The notes beneath the pieces were generated by a model, which ran no database searches, was not told the DNA's origin, and saw only the letters and a list, made by a program, of their open reading frames with translations. From positions 57,981,471 through 58,045,470 of the forward strand of contig CM055901.1 in NCBI GenBank assembly GCA_029582155.1: 64,000 nucleotides of DNA, in the 5' to 3' direction. This document shows positions 10,190 to 54,842 of the stretch, in pieces (the stretch's first letter is position 1; each line of letters opens with the position of its first letter). The position numbers were made by a program, and so were the translations under genes. The DNA comes from Panopea generosa (Eukaryota > Mollusca > Bivalvia > Adapedonta > Hiatellidae).

Positions 10190-10440
10190 ATATCATTTTT
10201 AATGAGTTTAACGCAATGTTCAACACATTTCTGGTTCTAAAGGGCATATCCAGTTTTATTGGTGGAGGAAAACCTCATAATAAATCTGCGTAGAGCCACT
10301 GTCCTTCCACAAGTAACTGGCGCAAACTTTCTCACATACAGCTTTTGGAGCGAGCGGGACTCGAACCGACGATCTTAGTTGTGAGAGGTAAGTGACCTTG
10401 AGATGGCGTCTTAGACCACCCGGCCACGGAGAACACCGAT
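10190..10440 (-). mobile_element. tRNA-derived SINE, family I
   Basis: Read on the minus strand, this starts with a tRNA-like head (CCGTGGCCGGGTGGTCTAAG) and a good Pol III B-box (GGTTCGAGTCC). A SINE body with ACTTGTGGAAGGACAGTGGC and AAACTGGATATGCC follows, ending in TTAAACTCATTAAAA. Related copies lie at 11348, 37480, 43020, 50167 and 51997, so it is a dispersed family. It is not a tRNA gene: it is embedded in the longer SINE and lacks a clean acceptor stem. Confidence 0.85.
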
Positions 10441-11347
10441 ATATCAATAATTACAGTAAACATTTACAAAGGTGCATGTCCATATGGTACTAAGGTCAAT
10501 ATATAGTCTATCAAATAAATTGACTGCTTATTTCTGACAAATCAAGAAATTAAAAGTACATGTAGTAAATATGTTTTTAATCGTCATTTTAACCTCCACA
10601 AATATGTATATATGCAGAACGCCAAAATAAGTTTTATTTAAAAAAAAGTGTTTTATTACTCATTTCAAATATAAAATCAGGTTTATATCCAATTTTGTAT
10701 GTAATTTATATTACTCATATAAACAAAACATATATCATAGTGAAGATTTTGATATCCAATTAGAACTATCCGAAATGTCGTATTTTAGAAGTTATTTATA
10801 GTTGTTTTTATCCTTGGATTGTTTTCCATTATACTGATATAAGCCTAATGAAACGATGAAATTAAAATACAATTTGAACTTGTTTTCATTAATTACTGCA
10901 AATGTGTGATATAGGATGTTATTCGATCATTTAGAAGAGCTATTCCATTTTTCTAAACAAAAAGAAACGAAATTCAAGGACTGCATACATACTGGGTATT
11001 TAATTCAATATTTGGCTCATGATATATGTAGCTATAGTTTGCTAATGACAATTGCAGTTATTGTTTGCTCATGATATGTGCAGTTTACAAAATATGTAAG
11101 AAAATTTGTTGAAATGACATTTTGTCATCATCATGAAAATTATTAGATTTTTTTTTACTTTCTTCTGTGTTTTTTTTTTATTAAAGAACAACACATATTA
11201 TCTTTATTTTGGTATATATTGGTGGCATTTGTCAAGTAACTGCTTACTACAGAGGTGATATCACTTTTATGTTGTCGCTTCTGTGTTTTTACACAGACAT
11301 ATGTGTATTGCACGGTTGTGTCAGATATTAATATTATTAATATTAGA
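10441..11347. other. Non-coding sequence
   Basis: AT-rich with T-runs near 11150-11180. No gene, RNA or repeat could be recognised. Confidence 0.5.
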
Positions 11348-12540: not shown

Positions 12541-13419
12541 ATCCCCCGCCGAAGGCAAAGTGGAGTATAGAAATAGTCTCCGTCAGAGGGTACGTGTGTG
12601 CGTCCGTCCGTCCGTCCGTCCGTTCGTCCGTCCATAACTCCAAAACTATTTGAGCGATTTTGTTGAATCTTCACATAATAACTGACAAAGGACATTGAGA
12701 AAAAATGCAGTGTACAAGAACCATAACTCTACCTTGCTTACTTTTTCAGTTAGCTTCCTTTATTAATATACACTTTTGTCCGGAGAATAACTCCAAAACT
12801 ATTCAACGGATTTTGTTGAATCCACACACAATGACTGAGAACCATAACTTTAACTTGCTTACTTTTTGAATTATCTCCTTTTATCAAATTTACTTGTCCT
12901 GGGCATAACTCTAAAAGTGCTTAACGGAATTTATCCAACTGCATACAATGACAGAGGGTATTAAGGGAACATGCAGAGTCTTAGAACTATTACTCTACCT
13001 TGCATTATTTTTCAATTATCTCTTTAAGTATACTTGTGATACAGATTACTCAAGAACTATTCCAGGGATTTGTTTTATATTTCATACAATGATATAGGAC
13101 ATTGAGAACTGCATTGTCCAAAGACTATAGCTGTACCATGTCCATTTTTAATTATCTCCCTATATTATATTATATTACGCTAGTCCAGAACATAACTTAA
13201 AAATGGATTTAGTTGATATTTCACACAATAATAGAGGACATTGAGAGGATGTACAGTGTGCAGGAAGCATAACATTTTCTTCTGTCTTCGCAGAATTATT
13301 CCCCTTTGTTTGTAGTATACCTTGAAAAGTTTTGAAGTGAATGCTTTGAAACTGCATACATTGATAGAGAGCATTGGCAAGAAGTGGTCGGTACACGAAA
13401 TTGCTTCTGCGTGGGGGAT
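12541..13419. mobile_element. Dispersed repeat bounded by ATCCCCC/GGGGGAT, nested in a LINE
   Basis: Starts ATCCCCCGCCGAAGGC and ends GCGTGGGGGAT, giving short inverted termini. After the start comes a (GTCC)n run at about 12600-12632. The body is then about six degenerate units of roughly 120-150 bp, each with a version of ATAACTCCAAAACTATT, ACATTGAGA and AATTATCTCC. I know this kind of element as common in marine invertebrate genomes but cannot name its superfamily. It has no coding capacity, so it is a non-autonomous element or satellite-like insertion. Confidence 0.7.
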
Positions 13420-35866: not shown

Positions 35867-37479
35867 CGTTCGTATTCTTATTTGGTGTTACCGTGCATGG
35901 AACTGAGTGAAAAAAAAATAAAATCACGTGCCATGTAGCGTTCCCGTTTTTTTTTCATTAATTGAACTTGACGTTAGTAGTATTAATTAATAGCACGTGC
36001 AAAGTGCGCTGCAAGTTTCGTATTTAGATGTAATGAAAATGCCGTCAAAACCGCAGCAATGCTGGAATAATATACGTAGTGGACAATAAATGAATGTTGA
36101 ACTATACGTGTACTAGAAGTTTCGTTCTTATATTCAAACCGGACATTATGACGGAATATATCTGGATCTTAATGTTACAGACGATTGGTATTTCTTTAGG
36201 TAAGTTTATAAAGGTTATTTTTCTAAGAAAACATATTTATATACATGTCAGATACTGTTGTTTGGAGTTGCTGTCAATGTTACATTCATGTATATGAATG
36301 CTACACATCCAGTTGTACAAATGTGGCCTTTTGTGTGTGTTGGCGTGTATTTGTATATTGTCTAGCCGATGATGCTCCAGGAAAACGATAAACAATGTTT
36401 TTTACCTTGTCAATGAAAAGGTACATAACTTCTTCCTACGTTGTTTTTTTTTTTTGTGATATTTATGTTTGTTTTGTTTTTTTTCAAAACTCAAAATACA
36501 CGATCCCCCCCCGTCCCCCACCCCATCTGTTTTCCATTTAGGCTGTTAACGTTAGTAGAACACGTACTAAACAACATCATTACCAACAACAAACACAATT
36601 ACCTTTATTTTGTCATGGTCATATTGTCGTTCAACAAGCATCATGCAATGTATTTGACGTCATTAAATGTAACTACAACATGATGAATTCAGCAATCTTA
36701 CGTCACCATTCAGACATAGCGTTATACATATTTTAACATTGTGGCATGTATACATATTTTAACATTGTGGCATGTATACACAGACACACATGTCTTATTT
36801 CTTTCAAATCTGAAACGTGATCTGTATAATATGTAAAGCAACAGACATCCGTGTAACGGAAGCCCTAATCGTATTTATTTTGAAACTTTCTCATCAACAC
36901 CCCATTGCTACAGCAGATAGGATATCTAAATAGTCTGACAGATATGCTGAAAGTTGAGATAGCTTCGTCTGCTAAGTTCAGGTTCTTTTGTATATGAAGC
37001 AGACGAGTCCCGCATCTAATCTATTGTTGTAGAAAATAGAATAAACACGCATAAAGCTTCAAGATGAATTTAAATCTCATCGTGCCATGCTACTGGTTGG
37101 TCGTGAGGGTACCTGGGTATTGTCTTAACGGTGGGGTGGCATGTTATACCGCTTAATCACGTGGACTCACTGTGCTGTGGCCGTTACTACATGGGCAATG
37201 CATGTCTAATTGTAGCAGTTATATATACATGTGTATAACCATTACATTAAATTTGCTGACAATAATCTGAGTTAAAAAGTACTTTTGATTAATGACAACT
37301 TTTAAGACCAATGCATCACTTTATTAATGATGATAACCATTCTGATAAGACTAATTGAGGATTCAGGGAGAGCAACACAAAACAGTGGATTAATTATTAT
37401 TGAAAGAGATAAGAAAAATCGCACAAATCTTATTACCGAAATGCATCTGTTTTCTGACTTTTTATTGATATATTGGTAT
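35867..37479. other. Non-coding sequence around a candidate first exon
   Basis: Contains T-rich and C-rich runs near 36445-36520 and a 26-bp direct repeat at about 36727-36778 (TACATATTTTAACATTGTGG). Apart from the small candidate exon at 36148 no gene is seen. Confidence 0.45.
36148..36199 (+). CDS. Candidate signal-peptide first exon, gene unidentified
   Basis: ATG at 36148 opens 17 codons (MTEYIWILMLQTIGISL) plus one base, ending at a consensus donor GTAAGTTT from 36200. A short hydrophobic N-terminus followed by a phase-1 intron is the usual layout for secreted or membrane proteins built from extracellular modules. No downstream exon with a matching phase-1 start was recognised, so this rests on the exon alone and could be chance. 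Confidence 0.3.
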
Positions 37480-37695
37480 CCATTTCGGCATACAGTGCCG
37501 TACACAGTGGTGTTAGACGCTGTCTCACGATCACTTACCTCTCACCGTTAAGGTTCGAGTCCCGCTCGCTCCAAAAACTTTATGTGAGAAAGTTTGTAAG
37601 TTACTTGCTGCAGGGCGATGGTTTAACCTAACCAATAAAAAACTGGATATGTCCTATATAATTTAAAATGTGTCGAAAATGATGTTAAGTTCTAT
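37480..37695 (+). mobile_element. tRNA-derived SINE, family I
   Basis: Head AGACGCTGTCTCACGATCAC and TTACCTCTCACCGTTAAGG, then a near-perfect B-box (GGTTCGAGTCC) and CGCTCGCTCCAAA. The body has TTACTTGCTGCAGGGCGATG and AACTGGATATGTCC, with an AATAAAA-like end. It is the best-preserved plus-strand copy, and its head is the one that matches the 61-bp satellite monomer at 39124-41269. Confidence 0.87.
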
Positions 37696-37979
37696 TAATA
37701 AAACAGAAAGAAAAAAGGAAACCGATGTACTCTTGAAAAAAAAGAAACGAAAGACATCACATTTTACATAATCGTGGTCATTTAAATATTGCAATTATTA
37801 TATAAGTTGACTCCATTTAGTTTTCAACCGTCTTTATCGGTGTTATAGAAAGAATTCGAAGAAAATATCATCTTGTAATTGTTAAGAATTTTTATTCATA
37901 ATTTCTAAACTGATAACTTAGTTCAACATGAAGTTTCGGATTATACTATTTTGATATTAATAGTGCGTCGTATAAAACA

Positions 37980-39123: not shown

Positions 39124-41269
39124 CATGCCCAACATGGCCTAGTGGTTAGAGGGGCTGTCTCATAAACACTTTGAAGGTTTGGATTCAGCCCAACAAAGCC
39201 TTGTGGTTAGAGGCGCTGTCTCCTGATAACTTTGAAGGTTTGTGCCCTGCCCAACATAGCCTAGTTGTTAGATGATCACTTTGAAGGTTTGGACCCAGCT
39301 CAACATGGTTTTGTGGTTATTTGAAGGTTTGGACCCAGCTCAACATGGTCTTGTGGTTAGAGACGCTGTCTCATGATCACTTTGAAGGTTTGAACCCTGC
39401 CCAACATAGCCTAGTTGTAGAGACGCTATCTCATGATCACTTTGAAGGTTTGGACCCTGCCCAACATGGCCTAGTTGTAGAGACGCTATCTCATGATCAC
39501 TTTGAAGGTTTGGACCCTGCCCAACATGGCCTAGTTGTAGAGACGCTATCTCATGATCACTTTGAAGGTTTGGACCCAGCCCAACATGGCCTTGTGGTTA
39601 GAGGCGCTGTATCATGATCACTTTGAAGGTTTGGACCCTGCCCAACATGGCCTAGTTGTGAGAGGCGCTGTCTCATGATCACTTTGAAGGTTTGGACCCA
39701 GCCCAACATAGCCTAGTTGTTAGAGACGCTGTCTCATGATCACTTTGAAGGTTTGGACCCAGCCCAACATAGCCTAGTTGTTAGAGACGCTGTCTCATGA
39801 TCACTTTGAAGGTTTGGACCCTGCCCAATATAGCCTAGTTGTTAGAGGCGCTGTCTCATGATCACTTTGAAGGTTTGGACCCTGCCCAACATGGCCTAGT
39901 TGTTAGAGACGCTGACTCATGATCACTTTGAAGGTTTGGACCCTGCCCAACATAGCCTAGTTGTTAGAGGCGCTGTCTCATGATCACTTTGAAGGTTTGG
40001 ACCCAGCCCAACATAGCCTAGTTGTTAGAGACGCTGTCTCATGATCACTTTGAAGGTTTGGACCCTGCCCAATATAGCCTAGTTGTTAGAGGCGCTGTCT
40101 CATGATCACTTTGAAGGTTTGGACCCTGCCCAACATGGCCTAGTTGTTAGAGACGCTGACTCATGATCACTTTGAAGGTTTGGACCCAGCTCAACATGGT
40201 TTTGTGGTTATTTGAAGGTTTGGACCCAGCTCAACATGGTCTTGTGGTTAGAGACGCTGTCTCATGATCACTTTGAAGGTTTGGACCCTGCCCAACATAG
40301 CCTAGTTGTTAGAGACGCTGTCTCATGATCACTTTGAAGGTTTGGACCCAGCCCAATATAGCCTAGTAGTTAGAGACGCTGTCTCATGATCACTTTGAAG
40401 GTTTGGACCCTGCCCAACATAGCCTAGTTGTTAGAGACGCTGTCTCATGATCACTTTGAAGGTTTGGACCCTGCCCAACATGGCCTAGTTGTAGAGACGC
40501 TATCTCATGATCACTTTGAAGGTTTGGACCCAGCCCAACATGGCCTTGTGGTTAGAGGCGCTGTATCATGATCACTTTGAAGGTTTGGACCCTGCCCAAC
40601 ATGGCCTAGTTGTGAGAGGCGCTGTCACATGATCACTTTGAAGGTTTGGACCCAGTCCAACAAGGTCTAGTTGTAGAGACGCTATCTCATGATCACTTTG
40701 AAGGTTTGGACCCAGCCCAACATGGCCTTGTGGTTAGAGGCCCTGTATCATGATCACTTTGAAGGTTTGGACCCTGCCCAACATGGCCTAGTTGTTAGAG
40801 ACGCTGTCTCATGATCACTTTGAAGGTTTGGACCCAGCTCAACATGGTTTTGTGTTATTTGAAGGTTTGGACCCAACTCAACATGGTCTTGTGGTTAGAG
40901 ACGCTGTCTCATGATCACTTTGAAGGTTTGGACCCTGCCCAACATGGCCTAGTTGTAGAGACGCTATCTCATGATCACTTTGAAGGTTTGGACCCAGCCC
41001 AACATGGCCTTGTGGTTAGAGGCGCTGTATCATGATCACTTTGAAGGTTTGGACCCTGCCCAACATGGCCTAGTTGTGAGAGGCGCTGTCACATGATCAC
41101 TTTGAAGGTTTGGACCCTGCCCAACATGGCCTTGTGGTTAGAGGTGCTGTCTCATGATCACTTTGAAGGTTTAGACCCAGCACAGCAAGGACTAGTTGTT
41201 AGAGGCGCTGTCACATGATCACTTTGAAGGTTTGGACCCAGCCCAGCAAGGCCTAGTTGTTAGAGGCGC
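39124..41269 (+). repeat. 61-bp minisatellite with a tRNA/SINE-head-like monomer
   Basis: About 35 copies of a 61-bp unit: ACATAGCCTAGTTGTTAGAG, ACGCTGTCTCATGATCACTT, TGAAGGTTTGGACCCAGCCC. Each unit contains TGGCCTAGTGG or TAGCCTAGTTG, matching the Pol III A-box consensus TRGYNNANNNG, and about 30 bases later GGTTTGGACCC, 9 of 11 to the B-box GGTTCGANNCC. CGCTGTCTCAxGATCACTT also matches the family I SINE head at 37515. Shortened units recur at about 39310, 40200 and 40850. The array is cut by the assembly gap. Confidence 0.95.
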
Positions 41270-41769
41270 NNNNNNNNNNNNNNNNNNNNNNNNNNNNNNN
41301 NNNNNNNNNNNNNNNNNNNNNNNNNNNNNNNNNNNNNNNNNNNNNNNNNNNNNNNNNNNNNNNNNNNNNNNNNNNNNNNNNNNNNNNNNNNNNNNNNNNN
41401 NNNNNNNNNNNNNNNNNNNNNNNNNNNNNNNNNNNNNNNNNNNNNNNNNNNNNNNNNNNNNNNNNNNNNNNNNNNNNNNNNNNNNNNNNNNNNNNNNNNN
41501 NNNNNNNNNNNNNNNNNNNNNNNNNNNNNNNNNNNNNNNNNNNNNNNNNNNNNNNNNNNNNNNNNNNNNNNNNNNNNNNNNNNNNNNNNNNNNNNNNNNN
41601 NNNNNNNNNNNNNNNNNNNNNNNNNNNNNNNNNNNNNNNNNNNNNNNNNNNNNNNNNNNNNNNNNNNNNNNNNNNNNNNNNNNNNNNNNNNNNNNNNNNN
41701 NNNNNNNNNNNNNNNNNNNNNNNNNNNNNNNNNNNNNNNNNNNNNNNNNNNNNNNNNNNNNNNNNNNNN
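41270..41769. other. Assembly gap, 500 N
   Basis: Exactly 500 N. The round length indicates a placeholder of unknown true size. It lies at the right edge of the 61-bp array, so the array length is probably underestimated. Confidence 0.99.
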
Positions 41770-43019: not shown

Positions 43020-43262
43020 TATAAACCTTCTTACGCTTTAATGGGGTTTAATGCCATTTTAACACATTTAAGGTTATATATGGCATTTTCAGTTTGACTG
43101 GTGGAGGAGGACCTCAGACTGAATCTGAGTAGAACAACCATCCTTCAGCAAGTAACTGTCAAACTTTCCCAATTACAGTTTTTGGAGAGAACTGGACTCG
43201 AACTTAAACGGTGAGAGATAAATGATCTTGAAACGGCACCTTAGACCACTCGACCACGGAAG
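43020..43262 (-). mobile_element. tRNA-derived SINE, family I
   Basis: On the minus strand: head CGTGGTCGAGTGGTCTAAGG, B-box-like TTCGAGTCC, body TTACTTGCTGAAGGATGGTT, then TTAAACCCCATTAAAGCG. It is diverged but complete in plan. It abuts the poly(A)-like end of the LINE at 43270-44400. Confidence 0.82.
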
Positions 43263-45462: not shown

Positions 45463-48400
45463 GCAAAGACAACCTTTTGGCGTGTTAGTTGTGTTCAATA
45501 AAGACAACCTTTTAGCGTGTTAGTACAACCTTTTAGCTTGTTAGTTGTGTTCAATAAAGACAACCTTTATAACTGTGAGTTGTGTTCCTTAAAGACAACC
45601 TATTAGACTGTGAAGTGTTCCATAAAGACAACCTTATAAACTGTGAGTTGTGTTCCATATTGACAATCTTTTAACCTGTGAGTTGTGTTCCATAAAGACA
45701 ACATGTTCGTATGTGATTTGTGTTCCATAAATACAACATGTTAGATTGTGAGTTGTGTTCCATAAATACAACATGTTAGACTGTAAGTTGGGTTCCATAA
45801 AGACACTCTATTAGACAGCGAGTTGTGTTCCATAAAATCAACCTTATAGCCTTTGAGTTGTATTCCATATTTACAACCTTTTAACCTGTGAGTTGTGTTC
45901 AATAAAGACAATCTGTTAGACTCTGAGTTTCGTTCCATTAAGATAATCTGTCAGACTGTGAGTTGTGTTCCATATTGACAACTTGCTAGACTGTGAGTTC
46001 TGTTCCATAAAGACAACATGTTAGACTGTGATTTGTGTTCCATAAAGACAACCTTATAACCTGTGAGTTGTGTTCCTTAAAGACAACATTTTAACCTGTG
46101 AGTTGTATTCAATAAAGATAACCGGTAAGAGTGTGAGTTGTGTTCCATATAGACAAACTGTGAGACTGTGGGTTGTGTTCCATAAAGACAACCTGTTAAA
46201 CTATGAGTTGCATTCTTTAAAGACAAACTGTAAGACTGTGAGCTGTCTTCCATTTAGACTATCTGTCAGACTATGAGTTGTGTTCCATAAAGACAATCTG
46301 TCAGACTATGAGTTGTGTTCCATAATGACAATCTGTCAGACTCTGGGTTGTGTTCCATATTGACAAACTGTTGGACTGTGAGTTGTGTTCTATTAAGACA
46401 ATCTATAAGACTGTGAGCTGTGTTCTATTAAGACAATCGGTCAGACTGTGAGTTGTGTTCCATAAAGACAACCTGTTAGACTTTGAGTTGTGTTCCATAA
46501 AGACAACCTGTAATAATGTGGGTTGTGTTCCATAAAGACAATATGTTAGACTGTGAGTTGTGTTCCATAAAGACAACCTGTTAGACTGTGAGTTGTGCTC
46601 CATAAAGATAACCTGTTAGACTGTGAGTTGTGTTCCATAAAGACAACCTGTCAGACTTTTAGTTGTGCTCCATAAAGATAACCTGTAAGACTGTGAGTTG
46701 TGTTCCATAAAGACAATCGGTCAGACTGTGAGTTGTGCTCCATAAAGACAACCTGTTAGACTGTGAGTTGTGCTCCATAAAGATAACCTGTTAGACTGTA
46801 AGTTGTGTTCCATAAAGACAACCTGTTAGACTGTGATTTGTGTTCCATAAAGACAACCTGTAAGACTGTGAGTTGTGTTCCATAAAGATAACCTGTAAGA
46901 CTGTGAGTTGTGCTCCATAAAGATAACCTGTTAGACTGTAAGTTGTGTTCCATAAAGACAACCTGTTAGACTGTGAGTTGTGCTCCATAAAGATAACCTG
47001 TTAGACTGTAAGTTGTGTTCCATAAAGACAACCTGTTAGACTGTGAGTTGTGTTCCATAAAGACAACCTGTAAGACTGTGAGTTGTGTTCCATAAAGACA
47101 ACATGTTAGACTGTAAGTTGTGTTCCATAAAGACAACCTGTTAGACTGTGAGTTGTGCTCCATAAAGATAACCTGTTAGACTGTAAGTTGTGTTCCATAA
47201 AGACAACCTGTTAGACTGTGAGTTGTTTTCCATAAAGACAACCTGTTAGACTGTGAGTTGTGTTCCATAAAGACAACCTGTTAGACTGTGAGTTGTGTTC
47301 CATAAAGACAACCTGTAAGACTGTGAGTTGTGTTCCATAAAGACAACATGTTAGATTGTAAGTTGTGTTAAAAAATGACAACCTGTTAGACTGTAAATTG
47401 TGCTCCATAAAGATAACCTGTTAGACTGTGAGTTGTGTTCCATAAAGACAACCTGTAAGACTGTGAGTTGTGCTCCATAAAGATAACCTGTAAGACTGTG
47501 AGTTGTGTTCCATAAAGACAACCTGTCAGACTGTGAGTTGTGTTCCAAAAAGACAACCTGTTAGACTGTGAGTTGTGCTCCATAACGATAACCTGTTAGA
47601 CTGTGAGTTGTGTTCCATAAAGACAACCTGTTAGACTGTGAGTTGTGCTCCATAAAGACAACCTGCTAAACTGTGAGTTGTGCTCCATAAAGACAACATG
47701 TTAGACTGTGAGTTGTGCTCCATCAAGATAACCTGTTAGACTGTGAGTTGTGCTCCATAAAGATAATCTGCTAAACTGTGGGTTGTGCTCCATAAACACA
47801 ACCTGCTAAAATGTGAGTTGTGCTCCATAAAGATAACCTGCTAAACTGTGGGTTGTGTTCCATAAAGACAACCTGCTAAACTGTGAGTTGTGCTTCATAA
47901 AGACGACCTGCTAAAATGTGAGTTGTGCTCCATAAAGACAACCTGTTAGACTCAGAGTTGTGCTCCATTAAGACAACCTGCTAAAATATGAGTTGTGCTC
48001 CATAAAGACAACCTGCTAAAATGTGAGTTGTGCTCCATAAAGACAACCTGTTAGACTGTGGGTTGTGCTCCATAAAGACAACCTGTTAGACTGTGGGTTG
48101 TGCTCCATAAAGACAACCTGCTAAAATGTGAGTTGTGCTCCATAAAGACAACCTGTTTGACTCATAGTTGTGCTCCATAAAGACAACCTGCTAAAATGTG
48201 AGTTGTGCTCCATAAAGACAACCTGTTAGACTCAGAGTTGTGCTCCATAAAGACAACCTGTTAGACTGTGAGTTGTGCTTAATAAAGACAACCTGTTAGA
48301 CTCAGAGTTGTGCTCCATAAAGAAAACCTGCTAGACTCTGAGTTGTATTCCATAATGACATCCTATTAGAATGTGAGTTGTGTTCCATAAAAGCAACCTT

Positions 48401-48478
48401 TAACCTGTGAGTTGTGTTCCATAAAAGCAACCTTTAAATCTGTGAGTTGTATTCCATAAAGACAACCTGTTAGACTGT
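45463..48478. repeat. 35-bp minisatellite array (GTTGTGTTCCATAAAGACAA)
   Basis: About 86 copies of GACTGTGAGTTGTGTTCCAT plus AAAGACAACCTGTTA. The left part (to about 46400) is diverged. The centre is nearly homogeneous, with alternating GTTCC and GCTCC versions. The right part carries GCTAAAATGTGAG variants. Minus-strand frames of about 65 codons, repeating MEHNSQSNRLSLWNTT, follow from the unit sequence and are not genes. Confidence 0.97.
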
Positions 48479-50166
48479 GATGCTGTACATATTTCGTGAT
48501 CAAAATAAAACATAAAAAATGAGCGTTCAATTATCATTCATAAACATACGTCTGTGAAATGAAACATCACGCACATAGAGTGTGACAATTGTATGTATGT
48601 TAGGTCTTTTGGGATATCTGGCAGCCTTGCTGTAATTACAGCTTTGAAACTAATATATTCCATGAATATATGTATATTTCAGAAATATAACAGTAGTTAC
48701 AACAACAGCAGTATGTATTGAGTAGAATCGTCTTTCTCAGGTTGTGTGATGTATTAATACAATGTGTCAGTAGCAATAGTTTTTAAACAAAAAATGACAA
48801 GTGGCTGTTAGGTGTTAGATACATTTTCTTCATACCTTTAATCATGACACATGACTGTATGTAACTCATACAAACAAACACATATCGTATAAGGTGGGAA
48901 ACAGCACTTGCGTATTTATAGCCAACACAAAAATTGCAACAGTGAAAATAAAAAAAAAATAATATTAGAAAAGGAATAAGTCAAGTTTATAACTAGTTTC
49001 TATCTATCAGTTTGTTTAAACTTGTTTGTTACGCTGAATTTGAAAGTAAATCAATCTTTTAAAACAGAAATTTTCCTGGAATCTGATAAACACTGATGAA
49101 ATTAAAAAAGGTTGTTTTGTCACATATACGACAATATCGTAAATTATCGTTCATACATGTACCATGTAGATATATAACTTTTATAAATAATATTAATTGA
49201 ATAGTTTTCTTTTAGATATCCTAATGTCTCTTTCATTCTATCAGTTGTATTGATAGAGGAACGTATTGTTCGGACGCATGTACGTATGAGTGAAACAATC
49301 TTTTCTTGGCTAATATGTAAAAACTTTCCCTTTTTTACTAGTGCATGTGAACTGAACGTATACTCAGTTATCCACAACTGTCAAATGACCTTAAGATAAT
49401 GCCTTATTTTATTCTCTACTCGCTGCTGGCCTCAGTTTACTTAAGTATGACATTGCTTTTGAAAATTAATAAAATGGTACAAGTAAACTTTAAGAAGATA
49501 CAATTTATTCAGTAAATGATACACACGAATTATTTAACTGCGTTGCGATTCTCTTTTATTTAATTCGTTATAGTAACCATTCACTGAGATGGTGTCCGTT
49601 TTATTATTGAATCTATATTCATATCGAACGTATCTAAATAGTAGAATAACCATTCGCAAACCCTTTATCTACAATACTATAACTATAACACTTCTTCCAA
49701 CAACTACAGTATTTCGCTCACGTTTTAGTTGTGATGCGGAGTGTCACTGATAGGTATGTTTTCTCCCTTAATTGAGATCAAACAAACACGGTCATCTGAT
49801 TGTGTATATCAAATTTCGTCTAAAGAAAATAATAGCATTACCATTCCGGCTTTATTGATTGTCGACGGAAGCGATTCTGTTGCCCAAGGCCATATACACA
49901 AATTAATGTAGCCTCACTCAGACTTGGCTAAATTGACGATCGCGCGTACTTCCATGGTGTAAATGATGGAAAGTGAAGTTTCTGACCCTTTGAGGTCCAA
50001 TAATTTGGTTAAAGATTCATTTATCCAAGAATATCCGCTTTTACCATCTGTTCTTTACTCGGCTGTCAAATAAGAGAGAAATACTGAACGACGGAGCTGT
50101 AAACCCACCAAAAAATCACGCACATGCTTTCACATACATACAATGTATGATGTTCGCAAAGCTCTT
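48479..50166. other. Non-coding sequence
   Basis: AT-rich, with a GC-richer stretch at about 49860-50100 that shows no clear exon. A 77-codon minus-strand frame at 49144-49377 is unassigned. Confidence 0.45.
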
Positions 50167-54527: not shown

Positions 54528-54842
54528 TGAAAACCGCAGCAGTGGTCTAGGAGTAGGGCGTTTGCTTCGCATGAGGAAGACCGCAGGTTCGATCCCTGGT
54601 CGGATCAAACCAAACACTTATAAAATGGTATAAGAAGTTTCTTTGCTTTGCGCTCAGCTATTAGAAGATACTTTTGGGTCTAATCGGCCCGGTGGCGGTA
54701 TAATGTGACTTGGGCGGAGTATCAAACCATTGATTCTCCAGTGTGCCAGCAGCGTTGAGAATACTGTCTCATGTAGACACCGTTACGATATAACTAAACA
54801 ATTGTTGAAAGCTACGCTAAAACACCATACAACCAACCAACA
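54528..54842 (+). mobile_element. tRNA-derived SINE, family III (tRNA-Ala-like head)
   Basis: The head contains AGTGGTCTAGGAGTAG (A-box region), TTTGCTTCGCATGAGG and a perfect B-box GGTTCGATCCC; the anticodon-arm resemblance is to tRNA-Ala. The body has GGTATAATGTGACTTGGGCG, CTCCAGTGTGCCAGCAGCGT and ATGTAGACACCGTTACG. It ends CTAAAACACCATACAACCAA with an ACCA-type tail. The acceptor stem does not pair properly and the body follows directly, so this is a SINE and not a tRNA gene. Confidence 0.85.

Follow-up and report, generated by a model that had tools for sequence, protein, structure and literature searches.

A single-locus 61-bp tandem array in the Panopea generosa genome, probably derived from the head of an abundant SINE family

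Results and discussion

Structure and extent of the tandem array

We analysed a window of 64,000 nucleotides from the genome of Panopea generosa (C8:57981471-58045470), in which 16 arrays listed from Tandem Repeats Finder rows occupy 22,261 of 63,500 bases (~35 %). In most of the 16 the CpG ratio exceeds 1, but it is 0.08 in a 35-bp array at 45504-48480. The array described here is built of 61-bp units and shares the window with several copies of a family I SINE (Table 1). The initial annotation had placed about 35 units at 39124-41269, and cutting this span at the word TTGAAGG confirmed the array as real, yielding 37 pieces of which 32 are 60-63 bp, one is 49 bp and three are 39-40 bp in length, the last being a partial piece of 30 bases. 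The right end of that span, however, is not a natural one: the visible end is where the assembly stops, since a gap of 500 N starts at 41270 and hides the true end of the array.

The 32 full monomers comprise 21 kinds and have a mean pairwise identity of 0.909. Each of the shortened monomers, at 39297, 40188 and 40836, is followed by a monomer of the GGTCTTGTGG kind, forming a higher-order block, and the array contains exact repeats that are 200 bases or more, but less than 250, in length. The recurrence of the same kind of monomer after each shortened one, together with these long exact repeats, points to recent duplication in blocks. The plus strand of the array contains TTTT at three places, each within a shortened monomer. 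A search for SINE sequence in both visible flanks, to the left and beyond the gap, found none, the right edge itself lying inside the gap.

Table 1 Features of the window discussed in the text (positions are those of the window)
Feature	Position	Strand	Basis or remark
61-bp tandem array from the family I SINE head (A side by alignment, B side as judged from order and position), 36 monomers and 1 partial	39124..41269	+	Tandem Repeats Finder rows, TTGAAGG cutting, identity, SINE alignment
Shortened 40-bp monomer with TTTT	39297..39336	+	Recurs at 40188-40227 and 40836-40874
Assembly gap, 500 N, cutting the array	41270..41769		Sequence read
Family I SINE copy named in the initial annotation, B-box GGTTCGAGTCC	37442..37719	+	Local alignment with the unit
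Family I SINE copy, head matches the unit	10198..10462	-	Shuffle test (1/1000 shuffles)
Family I SINE copy, head matches the unit	43029..43251	-	Shuffle test (1/1000 shuffles)

Homology of the unit to the family I SINE head

An origin from a SINE head had been proposed on the basis of the stretch CGCTGTCTCAxGATCACTT, said to be common to the unit and the SINE at 37515. We found this stretch in both, and the local alignment of unit and SINE has a score of 40. Shuffling the SINE stretch 2000 times gave at most 25, and the highest-scoring tile without this SINE, of 810 taken outside the array, has 27 against the unit. Comparison of the unit with the five SINE heads of the window gave scores reached by 0, 1 and 1 of 1000 shuffles for three of them, while the remaining two showed no significant match (146/1000 and 102/1000).

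We further compared the monomer with a consensus of 20 genomic SINE copies (20 of 10,578 matching loci, all on contig 1), the head of which contains the A-box TGGCCGAGTGG and the B-box GGTTCGAGTCC and presumably resembles a leucine tRNA. The score of 46 was reached by none of 10,000 shuffles, all of which remained at or below 34. The two sides of the unit contribute unequally to this match. From the A-box onward, 30 of 37 bases are identical to the consensus, and this A side is, by alignment, homologous to the SINE head. The B side by itself has 12 of 21 identical bases, a match reached by 869 of 10,000 shuffles and thus not significant, and gapped versions of it were reached by 569, 595, 218 and 25 of 5000 shuffles; here we judge homology from order and position. 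The proposed origin is supported for the unit as a whole and for its A side, with order and position speaking for the B side.

The unit might instead have come from a tRNA gene or from another tRNA-derived SINE family, its likeness to family I being that of tRNA heads in general. Such a source would account for the D-arm text of the unit, TAGTGGTTAGAG, which differs from the GTGGTCTAAGG of family I, as well as for the weak match of the B side, and a second tRNA-like head family is present in the window at 54543. However, GCGCTGTCTCAxGATCACTT, which unit and family I have in common, lies outside the A- and B-boxes, and Rfam and ARAGORN, applied to the array and to two SINE heads, found no tRNA. 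We therefore regard this source as unlikely. Rfam, applied to the whole window and to three short stretches, returned no tRNA and only weak matches below gathering scores, and ARAGORN likewise returned no tRNA. The monomer and one SINE head folded no better than their shuffles, 112/200 and 173/200 of which, respectively, fold at least as well. One weak Rfam match, at 12803-12847, is to the histone 3′ UTR stem-loop (21.6 bits, gathering score 34, E 0.21).

Genomic distribution

Searching 1,474,161,289 bases in 39 contigs with a 23-base word of the unit, allowing up to 3 mismatches, we obtained 39 matches, 33 within the array and 6 elsewhere, with 5 and 3 in the reversed control. The six outside matches are at control level, so that the array appears private to one place at this sensitivity. 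A 377-base query gave 7 matches among the best candidates scored, all of them in the array. The SINE, on the other hand, is abundant, a 24-mer of its head having 10,578 matches in the genome with at most one mismatch and none in the reversed control. The designation "satellite" used in the initial annotation is hence overstated for what is a single locus in 1.47 Gb at the sensitivity of the 23-base word search. A pattern scan of viral_contigs gave 0 matches; an 18-mer had 9 matches in bacterial records of genome_contigs, which we took as chance.

Confinement to one locus also bears on the idea that the array could be the central tandem core of a non-autonomous DNA element. Bivalve CvA elements have such a tandem core (PMC5874043), and the right flank of the array begins behind the gap. 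Against this, the visible flanks are joined by only two 14-nt inverted pairs with 86 % identity, nothing that would be convincing, they have no strong relative in the window, and no second genomic copy of the unit array was found, which makes this reading extremely unlikely.

Conservation of the A- and B-boxes

The array had been described as about 35 tandem Pol III-like promoters. We scored the boxes against general consensus strings or those of the initial annotation. GGTTTGGACCC occupies the B-box position in 32 of 36 monomers, with 4 carrying variants. The reported agreement of 9 of 11 included two N positions and amounts to 7/9, the two mismatches being C5 (the C of GGTTCGA) and A7. C5 is found in none of the 36 monomers and A7 in one, so the array departs from the B-box of type II Pol III promoters, GGTTCGANNCC with C5 and A7, at both letters. 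Among the SINE copies (n = 20) C5 is found in 15 and A7 in 19, with the qualification that in the SINE copies the best-scoring 11-mer was taken, which favours matches, whereas the box of each monomer was located from the cutting word, and that word already provides the GG. On the minus strand of the array 34 windows reach a B-box score of 7/9; on the plus strand 40 windows score 7 and 2 score 8.

The A-box had been claimed for every unit. We found all seven specified letters of TRGYNNARNNG in 22 of 36 readings, which were obtained from 37 pieces with a 39-bp monomer missed and the partial piece included, but the two forms named occur less widely, TAGCCTAGTTG in 10 and TGGCCTAGTGG in only 1. 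Box conservation no better than that of the rest of the unit had been set beforehand as an outcome speaking against promoters, and among the 32 full monomers this is the case for the A-box, the mean column entropy of which is 0.368 as against 0.211 for the remainder; it ranks 58th of 61 windows by conservation, which places it with the most variable portions of the unit. The B-box, with a mean column entropy of 0.109, is more conserved than the unit average. It is nevertheless the 15th of 61 windows, 14 scoring better, and the three windows without any variation begin upstream and extend into the first bases of the B-box.

A- and B-box are 41 bases apart in the unit and, scored as pairs, have a median joint score of 14/16 (12 tiles, 39320-40199). 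In 11 other tileable arrays, considered on both strands, medians range from 9 to 12 with a best of 13, one further array being too short. We attribute the higher joint score of the array to its descent from a SINE head. As a positive control, the tRNA-like head at 54543-54596, which probably belongs to another SINE family, has a B-box of 9/9 at 54586 and an A-box of 7/7, 43 bases before it.

These observations allow the proposal to be weighed that TFIIIC binds throughout the array or Pol III transcribes it, making it an insulator-like or transcribed element. The complete A-box letters in 22/36, the box spacing, the joint score exceeding that of other arrays and the above-average conservation of the B-box would all be in keeping with it, and tRNA-like tandem families can be transcribed, as reported in vitro for the newt PolIII/TAN repeat (PMC10702118). 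Yet the B-box is described as essential to TFIIIC binding, with nearly none remaining for an A-box alone (PMC11724288), and a C56G change in GTTCRANNC as abolishing TFIIIC-dependent integration (PMC5391098). With C5 lost from 36/36 and A7 from 35/36 monomers, a poorly conserved A-box and a minus strand that scores similarly for the B-box, TFIIIC or Pol III activity over the array is unlikely judging from its sequence, and we would rate an array-wide element of this kind as very unlikely. A variant in which densely spaced, weakened sites would hold TFIIIC by avidity but, their B-box core being lost, would not permit Pol III transcription, giving a cluster like the extra-TFIIIC (ETC) sites, derived from a SINE head, is if anything more doubtful. 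The array would be expected to bind TFIIIC poorly. The description as tandem promoters is thus not confirmed: with the key promoter letters gone from its copies, the array looks like ordinary repeat DNA rather than a series of working promoters, and it does not demonstrate a new regulatory element. We consider it probable (about 80 %) that the array is a single-locus minisatellite that arose from a decayed SINE head and has no conserved Pol III promoter.

Comparison with known tandem repeats

SINE-derived satellites (sSats) have been described in squamates, including the 67-nt Squam3 of snakes with the B-box part of the head (PMC10702118, the source also of the squamate data below). Such satellites have at least 4 tandem units, of which the array has 36 monomers, and a unit similar to a portion of the genome's own SINE, which applies here to the whole unit (0/10,000 shuffles) and its A side (30/37), the B side alone not being significant. 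Occurrence at several loci is seen in rich genomes but is not required, rare loci also being reported; here 33 of 39 matches lie in the one array, whereas the sSats of snakes are multi-locus. The squamate repeats and the array are alike in that a short tandem unit is taken from the tRNA-related head of a SINE that the genome itself contains, in the various lengths of the arrays and in internal SINE duplications as their beginnings. They differ in the portion used, the Squam3 unit consisting of the B-box part of the head with some body and the array unit extending approximately from A-box to B-box with the variable arm lost. In most squamate sSats, though not in all, the end unit is longer and extends to the SINE terminus; no such unit was seen in the array, the right end of which is hidden.

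Other tandem families with tRNA-like parts are more distant. Hy/Pol III of Hydromantes salamanders has, like the array, been ascribed to the tRNA-related region of a SINE (PMC9659126), and it is without box B according to PMC10702118, which we count as a likeness. Its unit is ~200 nt and its tRNA origin is considered questionable in the same source, whereas the array shares its genome with the parent SINE. Xenopus satellite 1 / OAX and the newt PolIII/TAN share with the array tandem units having a tRNA-like part (PMC9659126, PMC10702118) but have much longer units, ~360 nt in the newt, where the repeat is reported to be transcribed in vitro. In a review, Xenopus satellite 1 and Hy/Pol III are given as derivatives of the tRNA-related region (PMC9659126); such earlier examples are regarded as inconclusive in PMC10702118. 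ETC sites resemble the array as B-box-like sites without a gene, but they are bound B-boxes, while in the array the core letters of these putative sites are lost (PMC5391098, PMC11724288). A TFIIIC-bound SINE satellite was not found in the literature searched. SINE-derived tandem arrays are therefore already known, and the present one adds another example, at a single locus.

Possible steps from SINE to array

This one genome displays possible steps from SINE to array side by side, namely a family with more than 10,000 head-word matches, short-arm copies, a SINE with a two-copy duplication and the 36-unit array, a juxtaposition useful for studying how mobile elements give rise to tandem repeats. 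We infer the following order of events and mode of amplification. A family I SINE would have aged in place, its head losing the variable arm and its B-box the C and A that mark a working box. A segment beginning near the A-box and ending shortly beyond the B-box would then have been duplicated in tandem and, via unequal crossing-over or replication slippage, may have grown to ~36 copies with higher-order blocks. With a CpG ratio of 0.24, the array lies below the sequence outside the listed arrays (0.98), and the missing B-box C fits CpG decay in an old SINE, placed before amplification because all 36 monomers share its absence. Since values between 0 and 1.87 occur among the other arrays, the composition of the founder could by itself account for the low ratio.

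Loss of the variable arm is seen in other SINE copies. One of the six unit-word matches outside the array is a family I SINE copy (C12:10585793-10586003) that has lost the arm at the same point as the unit and matches the whole monomer ungapped at 43 of 61 positions, a value reached by none of 5000 letter shuffles (best 32), although its likeness at the junction is partly selected because the copy was found with a pattern spanning that junction. A short-arm SINE subfamily would be a candidate source of the array. Of 13 loci inspected in this respect, 7 agree with the SINE profile in the expected orientation, and 4 of these (L047, L080, L081 and L083) have by eye a shortened arm of one length, the search pattern having been of fixed length. 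Ten exact short-arm heads obtained with a free-gap pattern display several different junctions, which fits separate deletions.

A family I SINE at C10:40468188-40468446 (L117 989-1247) contains an internal 129-bp duplication of 2.0 copies with 97 % matches that begins at the A-box TGGCC. Tandem duplication starting in the head thus occurs inside SINEs of this genome, and the two-copy element plausibly represents a seed stage of such arrays. By eye, TTTATACCATTATGAA is present on both sides of this SINE and looks like a 16-base target duplication.
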